DNA of 33,453 nt from contig CAMMEP010000004.1 in assembly GCA_946495905.1 (NCBI GenBank), forward strand, positions 1 through 33,453, written 5' to 3'. The position numbers and the translations under genes are program-made. Shown here piece after piece: positions 1-30,427 of the stretch. This DNA is from an uncultured Clostridium sp. GTDB taxonomy: Bacteria; Bacillota; Clostridia; TANB77; CAG-508. Numbering within the stretch: position 1 is the stretch's first letter; the number at the start of each line of letters is the position of its first letter. The notes beneath the pieces were generated by a model. It did not search any database and was not told where the DNA came from. It saw nothing but the letters and a program-made list of their open reading frames with translations.

Positions 1-52
1 CACATATGTGTCGTTAACAGTTTGTAAACTTGTCGGTCCCCACCTTAAGCAC
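1..52 (+). repeat. Long foldback-repeat core, right half (copy C, truncated by window start)
   Basis: 17-52 acagtttgtaaacttgtcggtccccaccttaagcac is identical to 29963-29998 and matches the reverse complement of about 9081-9116 with 2 differences. Confidence 0.85.
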
Positions 53-103
53 TCCGACCTAAAATAAAAAATATATAAATTTATTTAAAGTAATAGAATT
101 ATA

Positions 104-138
104 TTTGTGCAAAACAAGCCCGTCCCCTTTTGCACAAA
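104..138. repeat. Short foldback repeat: core caagcccgtcccc between tttgtgcaaaa / ttttgcacaaa arms
   Basis: 11-bp perfect inverted arms (104-114 / 128-138) around a GGGGACGGGCTT-type core shared with 1928-1939. Confidence 0.75.
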
Positions 139-158
139 ATAGAAAGGAAAGTGATTGT

Positions 159-9010: not shown

Positions 9011-9044
9011 AACGATTAGTTGTTATAAATCACAGTTTGTTTTT

Positions 9045-9198
9045 AGAGAAGAAGTATATATTTTTTATTTTTGATTTCCGTGCTTAAGGTGGGGACCAAC
9101 AAGTCTACAAACTGTTAAACTGAGCGAATGTGAAGTTTGTACAGTTTGTACGATGTTGGGGGCCGGAAATAAAAATAAAAAATATATACTTCTTCTCT
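9045..9198. repeat. Long foldback repeat, copy A (core in reverse orientation)
   Basis: Arms agagaagaagtatatattttttattttt (9045-9072) / reverse complement 9171-9198, 28 bp perfect, plus 7 further bp after a 1-nt bulge; core 9081-9163. Confidence 0.92.
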
Positions 9199-9216
9199 AT
9201 ATAACTGTGAAATTTT

Positions 9217-28624: not shown

Positions 28625-28659
28625 TATAACCTAAATTCAATTTTAGGTTATATTTTTTT
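28625..28659 (+). terminator. Rho-independent terminator
   Basis: tataacctaaattcaattttaggttatattttttt. Confidence 0.85.
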
Positions 28660-28723
28660 GTGTACAAGAATATATTTATATATAGTAACTTGTACTATAA
28701 AAAGAATAAGGAAGGACATATAT

Positions 28724-29854
28724 ATGATAAATTTGGCGGTAATTGACATCAAGGATATCATTAAATATTTCATTAAAATAACAGTTATAATAGCTGTAAT
28801 AGTAGGATTTACGAAGTATTTTTCAAGTTTTAAAACCAAGTTAAATGTAGATAAAAATTCGTTTCTTGCATGTTTAGATACAGTTATTCCAAGTATAAGA
28901 AGTGTAAATAAAAAAGAAGATACATCTTCTACAAATGCTAAAGTAGAACCATTAAAGATGGCATTGGGCGTAGAACTGGGAATGATGGACAGTGTAGAAA
29001 AAAATGGTAATGAGGAAACATCAAATGATGGAGTAGCTAGTGGAGTAAATGAGGCAGAAGAAGGTAGTACTGAAACTGAAGAAGTAAAAGAAGCAGAAAC
29101 AGGATTAGAAACAGAAGTAGTGGAAAACAATGTACCAGAAAAATACACAACAGAATACAATGGGGTAAAAATACGTAATGAAACAGATAATATAAAATTA
29201 ACAGAAGAGATGCTTGTGCCAGAGGTTGATGTGAATATGAAGAATATTTTAATTTATCACACACATACTTGTGAAAGCTATACGCCAACAGAGAATTATC
29301 AATATGAGGCTTCTGGAAATTTTAGAACAAAGGATTTAAATTGTAATATGGTAAGAGTAGGTACAGAACTTACAAAATACTTAAAACATTATGGATACAA
29401 TGTAATTCATGATACTACTATATATGACTCTTCTTATAGCCAATCGTATGATAGATCTTTAAAAGGTGTAGCAAAGCTATTAGAAGAGAATAAAGATACA
29501 GATATTTTGTTTGATATGCATCGTGATGCCATAGGGGATAGCTCCTATGCACCTACTGTTAAAATTGGAGAGGAAGAAGCGGCACAAATGATGTTTGTAA
29601 TAGGAAGTAATGGTGGAGGAAGTGAGCATGACAATTGGAATGAAAATTTAAAATTAGCAATAAAAATACAAGAAAAAGCAAATGAAATGTATCCAGGCTT
29701 GTTTAAACCAATTATTTTAAGAGATAGCAGATATAACCAACAACTTGCAAAAGGTGCTAGCATTATAGAAGTAGGAGCAACAGGAAATACCATGGAGCAA
29801 TGCTTAACAAGTATGAAATATTTTTCGAAAGTATTAAGTGAGGTGTTAAAGTAG
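28724..29854 (+). CDS. spoIIP: Stage II sporulation protein P-like
   Basis: ILIYHTHTCESYTP, DILFDMHRDAIGD, FVIGSNGGGSEHDNWNENL. Confidence 0.9.
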   Translation: MINLAVIDIKDIIKYFIKITVIIAVIVGFTKYFSSFKTKLNVDKNSFLACLDTVIPSIRSVNKKEDTSSTNAKVEPLKMALGVELGMMDSVEKNGNEETSNDGVASGVNEAEEGSTETEEVKEAETGLETEVVENNVPEKYTTEYNGVKIRNETDNIKLTEEMLVPEVDVNMKNILIYHTHTCESYTPTENYQYEASGNFRTKDLNCNMVRVGTELTKYLKHYGYNVIHDTTIYDSSYSQSYDRSLKGVAKLLEENKDTDILFDMHRDAIGDSSYAPTVKIGEEEAAQMMFVIGSNGGGSEHDNWNENLKLAIKIQEKANEMYPGLFKPIILRDSRYNQQLAKGASIIEVGATGNTMEQCLTSMKYFSKVLSEVLK

Positions 29855-29889
29855 AGATAATTTGTTATAATTCACAATTGGCTCTAGAA

Positions 29890-30033
29890 TGTCGTAGCAA
29901 TGCCTATTTTAATTTTATGTTTCCGGCCCCCAACATCGTACAAACTGTAACAGCTTCGCTTAACAGTTTGTAAACTTGTCGGTCCCCACCTTAAGCACTA
30001 CAACATAAAATTAAAATAGGCATTGCTACGACA
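29890..30033. repeat. Long foldback repeat, copy B
   Basis: Arms gtcgtagcaatgcctattttaattttatgtt (29891-29921) / reverse complement 30002-30032, 31 bp perfect plus one outer T-A pair; core 29923-29998. Confidence 0.96.
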
Positions 30034-30427
30034 AAAAGCAACCGTGAATAATAACAAACAATTTAAGTAACGAAAAAAATTAAAAAAACTCTTGCAAAAA
30101 TAAAGCTGTTAGTATAGAATAAAAATATACTTAAAGCATAAAATGACAAAGTACAAGGAGGTAGAATTAATTTAAAGAAAAATATAGTGATATTCTTTGA
30201 AACGAAAAAGTATTAATAATACCAAAAGTACTTTGGAGTTTTAAAAATTTAAGTAAAAACAAACAGAAAAAATGACAGAAAGATGAATAAAACAGAAAGG
30301 AACAGAGCATAATAGGAGAAAAAGTAATTATTTATAAATTCGTATTTAAAGTTTCTTCTTAGTAGTACATAAATATGAATAAAATATGAATAATTACTAA
30401 AAAACGAAGGAGAGGAGAAAAATAGAA

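Follow-up and report, generated by a model that had tools for sequence, protein, structure and literature searches.

The stretch of DNA analysed here (the window) spans 33,453 bases and is a complete contig (C4) of a 1.3-Mb MAG. It carries a spoIIP-like gene (28658-29854, plus strand), which we take to be spoIIP from recognition of the protein, and which anchored the empty-site comparison given below. Ten bases past its stop codon starts element B (29864-30055, plus strand), a 192-bp member of class 1a of a family termed F1, bounded by the inverted termini GTTATAATTCACAATTG (29864-29880, plus strand), which fits the class consensus GTTACAATTCACAG, and GTTATTATTCACGGTTG (30039-30055, minus strand), inverted relative to the left one. 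The left target duplication site, GATAATTT (29856-29863, plus strand), is decayed and has four of eight bases in common with AAACAATT on the right side (30056-30063). Within the termini, a left inner arm, TGTCGTAGCAATGCCTATTTTAATTTTATGTT (29890-29921, plus strand), and a right inner arm that is its exact reverse complement (30002-30033, minus strand) enclose a conserved 80-nt core (29922-30001, minus strand) that includes an inner stem, TACAAACTGT/ACAGTTTGTA, with a variable tip. In the family orientation, GCTTAAGGTGGGGACC, the core lies on the minus strand, against the flanking genes, and B lacks ORFs of at least 80 aa. An earlier note on this DNA had described a perfect 31-bp palindrome around a core of about 80 nt; the perfect arms and the 80-nt core were confirmed, with an arm length of 32 bp (100% complementary) and not 31. 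The palindrome was rightly held to be unlikely by chance, perfect 32-bp inverted repeats with a spacer of up to 200 nt being expected 1.6e-11 times across the window, given its base composition.

Comparison within the window also bore out that the core of B is common to two other copies, A and C, while the arms differ. Copy A (1-140, plus strand) is an F1 element, also given as 14-77, truncated by the contig end, with a class-2 (RAYT REP-type) terminus, TGTGCAAAACAAGCCCGTCCCCTTTTGCA, of the kind that also flanks the RAYT gene in L228. Copy C (9044-9199, minus strand) lies between convergent genes, belongs to the GAGAAGAAG subfamily and has perfect 29-bp arms (9044-9072 and 9171-9199). At least 44 F1 copies were found in the 957 kb read of the 1.3-Mb MAG (60 stretches and the window). 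A search of this genome with 96 nt around the core returned 62 first-look candidates, and the 40 that were scored were all significant (40/40). The exact motif AAGGTGGGGACC occurred 44 times in the 957 kb, 39 times in listed copies and five times in further F1 copies or remnants, and was confined to such elements or remnants. Among the 58 genomes searched, F1 was present in 19 of the 30 genus genomes (own included) and in none of the 28 others, with very uneven copy number, and the exact-motif matches in named genomes were all in uncultured Clostridia or Clostridium MAGs. The exact core motif was not detected in viral contigs, blastn gave no match to F1 in phage and plasmid collections, and no match was found among described mobile element families. 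Assembly chimerism does not account for the family, as other copies of it, with identical arms, are found at orthologous sites in independent MAGs (for example L061/L104 and L052/L084). The 121 distinct copies that were extracted and compared have one layout, which from the outside inward comprises a terminal repeat, an asymmetric spacer, an inner arm (median 29 bp) and the core, followed by arm, spacer and terminal repeat. Palindromes or remnants that have arms of the F1 type but no core were also seen (L208:4229, L164:781 and L105:5622), apparently internal deletions, as shown for L105:5622 by comparison with L053.

Many F1 copies, B among them, belong to class 1, with terminal repeats GTTACAATTCACRG (a form also given as GTTACAATTCAC) outside the arms, and in 48 of these copies GTTACAATTCACAG-like repeats with at most four mismatches are found at both ends. 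In the same 48 copies a direct duplication of exactly 8 bp was detected (identity 0.68 vs 0.37 for shuffled pairings, z=13.9), the signal remaining below z=3.5 at all other lengths. Because of this exact 8-bp direct target duplication, seen at the level of the class and decayed in B, class-1 copies are taken to insert as DDE-type MITEs. Empty sites, whose comparison had been proposed earlier, were indeed found: the region downstream of spoIIP lacks B in 29 of 29 genus relatives by orthologue comparison, and at L053:5982, where ACTAGKTG stands on either side of the insertion, L039 represents an empty site from which the whole element is absent, arms and termini included. At this site L105 has lost only the core and most of the arms. 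Judged from its sequence, B is a predicted non-autonomous DDE-type MITE, being short, devoid of a transposase gene, of high copy number and polymorphic in its insertion, with terminal repeats and, at the level of the class, a duplication of fixed length.

No autonomous element with class-1 termini was found in the 957 kb of the genome itself, and searches of 30 genomes with PF00872, PF01610, PF12762 and PF01609 gave no transposase gene with GTTAC termini; PF00872 had matches in three relatives only, none with such termini, PF01610 had none over the cut-off, PF12762 had none, and PF01609 had few, none with GTTAC termini. The genome's single RAYT gene (PF01797) was rejected as mobiliser of B, since the repeats that flank it fit class 2 only, and RAYT genes also occur in congeners without F1. 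Class-2 copies have termini GGGGACGGGCTTATTTTGCACAA, an inverted pair of which flanks this gene, and the ends of these copies (L207, L200 and copy A of the window) are REPs cognate to the resident RAYT; those of B and of class 1 are not. The RAYT itself (a Y1 transposase of ~272 aa) is encoded at L228:1297-2293 on contig C27 of the same genome, with the inverted pair GCAATTGGGGACGGGCTTATTTTGCACAAG on both sides, and the RAYTs of relatives each have their own cognate inverted repeats, mostly with a GGGAC-type motif. Y1 transposases are not known to make an 8-bp target duplication.

The arms of B had been considered unique to their site, which the genome-wide comparison contradicts: the arms of the 44 own-genome copies form clusters of 22, 9, 5 and 4 members plus four singletons at 80% identity or more, and B falls in the 22-member cluster. 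The 8-bp target duplications provided a decay clock against which the arms could be compared. Identity is 68% in the target duplications and 77% between left and right terminal repeats, and reaches 95% (median 100%) in the innermost 24 bp of each arm; in the 21 copies whose duplications have decayed to five of eight matching bases or fewer, the arms are still 97% identical. At a distance of about 30 bp from the core, complementarity is down to background level. Orthologous sites revealed concerted changes. L084 and L110 (flanks 97-98% identical) are separated by two transitions and a 1-nt indel, and each of these is seen in the left and the right arm alike; L039 and L105 differ likewise by one transversion, and L052 and L110 by three transitions and three transversions. 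That the arms are kept identical after insertion is well supported, because duplications and termini have decayed while arms remain 95-97% identical, because orthologous arms change in concert, and because cores invert between intact arms. The suggestion that gene conversion maintains the arms was in this way upheld in substance.

Inversion of the core was clearest at L052:5420 and L084:5269, which represent the same insertion, with flanks 96-99% identical, no difference in the arms and an exactly inverted core. A second inverted core, at L052:3339 relative to L084 and L110, was accompanied by concerted arm changes, and a third (L192 vs L042) is in copies too diverged to rule out independent insertion. 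Core orientation was unchanged at about 12 other orthologous sites. Relative to the spacers, both orientations of the core are common (12:21).

We therefore consider it probable that B is a genus-restricted MITE whose arms were homogenised after insertion, most likely by template switching, with occasional inversion of the core. A DDE transposase acting in trans would move the class-1 elements, which insert with an 8-bp direct target duplication and carry their palindromic arms along. After insertion, one arm would be recopied from the other, most likely when the replicating DNA polymerase switches template at a hairpin or cruciform; such events could occasionally invert the core between the arms or lengthen an arm by copying the adjoining flank. 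Template switching is the most likely molecular route because arm homogenisation together with core inversion is its published signature: the two have been reported together where a polymerase switches template between inverted repeats (PMC8604942), and perfect hairpin stems are created and maintained in this manner (PMC8794818). Counted against this explanation are the lack of an autonomous partner in the searches described, a C.T mismatch that is not homogenised and is common in some subfamilies (34 of 83 arm mismatches), the duplication of B with only 4/8 matching bases, the near-invariance of the core loops and the orientation bias of the cores. A long perfect palindrome is commonly taken for a functional RNA stem or a special insertion site; in this genus, dozens of F1 copies, whose decaying duplications serve as a clock, reveal arms recopied and cores flipped after insertion. 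Since an inserted copy can have one arm rewritten from the other, compensatory changes within elements of this type are by themselves no proof of RNA function. The F1 family can serve as a natural experiment in how template switching operates in wild bacteria.

Other palindromic elements were found alongside F1. Family Y has an unrelated structured core, GTACCTTGCTGGTCG..GCTCGTTTGGTCGCTGCGCGGTAC, and termini similar to those of F1, with own-genome copies at L163:11909, L159:844, L162:12953, L179:11472 and 13654, L191:339, L206:3124, L189:5107, L158:2366, L176:5436 and L212:3107; GTTACTR termini with 8-bp duplications that match perfectly were seen in three of these. Family X is also palindromic, with core GATATGTCCTGCAACGGGAG..CTCCCTGCGCGGAC and termini other than those of F1 (L160:6512, L187:17658 and 19800, L190:5708, L192:14817, L199:6862 and L177:3046), and its copy at L190 lies inside an internally deleted F1 element. 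Two larger structured palindromic inserts were noted, one of ~300 nt between RAYT-type repeats (L198:11052-11351) and one of ~405 nt with termini ATTACAATTCAT / GTTACTATTCATAG (L215:3680-4084). At the L053:1943 site (L053/L058/L100/L039), F1 occurs with two different sets of arms, and L039 has a Y-type core.

These families may tentatively be viewed as parts of a modular platform, a possibility to which we give limited credence, in which palindromic envelopes with GTTAC or RAYT-REP termini would house unrelated structured cores (F1, Y and possibly X or others). The cores would be selected as selfish or host-used DNA or RNA modules, strand-biased with respect to transcription or replication, replication would keep each envelope as a perfect hairpin irrespective of its sequence, and the hairpin would be the transposition or functional unit.

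The left loop of the core has 97.4% pairwise identity between F1 copies, and at least 97% even in those with decayed duplications, although detection of copies itself needed resemblance in the loop, albeit far less than that observed; in orthologous pairs of greater divergence, whose flanks average 82% identity, 8% of the positions in the two core loops differ. A second allele of the right loop, CCAAAGGGCCAAAA-like instead of TTGGGGGCCGGAA, was seen in L016, L045, L048, L059, L191, L201 and L214, and in L048:1852 and L057:2151 a longer unrelated hairpin stands in place of the core tip, the inner stem of L057 differing on both sides too. Rfam gave no match to F1 at the gathering score, with only sub-threshold matches, chiefly to miRNA-precursor hairpins, and at gathering or relaxed thresholds neither F1 nor X, Y or the L215 element had a credible match.

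Selection on a transcribed RNA hairpin, with compensatory mutations keeping the arms complementary and the core forming an RNA structure in the upstream gene's 3' region, would account for the near-invariant loops, the strong fold of the core (z=-11.7) and a compensated inner-stem variant, ACAAAGTGT/ACACTTTGT, in L192 and L207. It is also favoured by the location of the cores, a median of 68-72 nt past stop codons in elements that start almost at the stop codon, by the orientation of the core strand GCTTAAGG, opposite to tandem genes in 60 of 74 cases (60:14), and by that of family Y relative to tandem genes, 11:0 in its own sense. We nevertheless regard this alternative as rather unlikely, given that arm mismatches have no wobble excess (G.U 11 vs A.C 14), that transversions and an indel are concerted between arms, that the core inverts while the arms stay intact, and that 11 of the 30 genus genomes have no match. 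In divergent gene pairs, whose transcription leads away from the element on both sides, an orientation bias with respect to the local majority strand is still seen (12:3); in tandem cases the gene strand is the local majority strand in 73 of 74, so that causes in transcription and replication are not separable there. The divergent pairs therefore suggest that replication direction, rather than transcription, may cause the orientation bias. A purely mutational, neutral account leaves the near-invariant loops and the orientation bias unexplained, and the core could be conserved under selection while the arms are homogenised mutationally.

Inversion of the core by a site-specific recombinase, with arm identity resulting from strand exchange as in an inverton, would be compatible with the clean inversions at orthologous sites and with the inversion of Correia elements, a MITE-like family, cited in a review (PMC10969869). 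We judge it improbable, because copies have no common inverted recognition site, their arms differing by subfamily, and because the two ends of the core, GGAGTGCTTAAGG and CCGGAA, do not form an inverted repeat.

Post-insertion copying would also explain the only case reminiscent of the inverted flank duplication that the earlier note had proposed as one of two mechanisms: at L053:1943 the arms include TTTTGTAAGAATGAG, the right arm holding an inverted copy, CTCATTCTTACAAAA, of the left flank, and the left counterpart of TTTTGTAAGAATGAG is ordinary flank in L058, L100 and L039. This flank-derived arm seems to have arisen after insertion, as relatives have the site already occupied. That the core inserts alone and makes an inverted duplication of flanking DNA as arms is very improbable as a general mechanism, since arms are common to many copies at different sites within subfamilies (the finding that the note itself had named as contrary to its proposal), the terminal repeats and the 8-bp direct duplications are both external to the arms, and the empty counterpart of L053:5982 in L039 has neither arms nor termini.

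F1 resembles several known systems in part. Like prokaryotic MITEs such as Correia elements (PMC10969869), F1 is short, non-coding, intergenic and of high copy number, with terminal inverted repeats and a direct duplication, and Correia elements are also reported to invert (PMC10969869); F1 differs from these in its long perfect inner palindrome, subfamily-specific arms and asymmetric, near-invariant core. Rickettsia palindromic elements (named in PMC10969869) resemble F1 in size (~150 bp) and in forming several families per genome, but they insert in genes, whereas F1 is intergenic with clear termini and a duplication, a separation drawn from their descriptions. REPINs and their RAYTs (PMC3116915) are likewise hairpin-forming intergenic repeats, and the class-2 termini correspond to the repeat flanking the RAYT gene; B and class 1 are set apart from REPINs by GTTAC termini, an 8-bp target duplication and core halves that are not inverted copies of each other. 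Inverted repeats and quasipalindromes shaped by template switching (PMC8604942, PMC7202029, PMC8794818) have in common with F1 the homogenisation of arms, the inversion of the spacer and the copying of multi-base changes and indels, but F1 copies are mobile and dispersed, with arms of ~30 bp around a core of 76-140 nt, whereas the inverted spacers described in yeast comprise a few bases.
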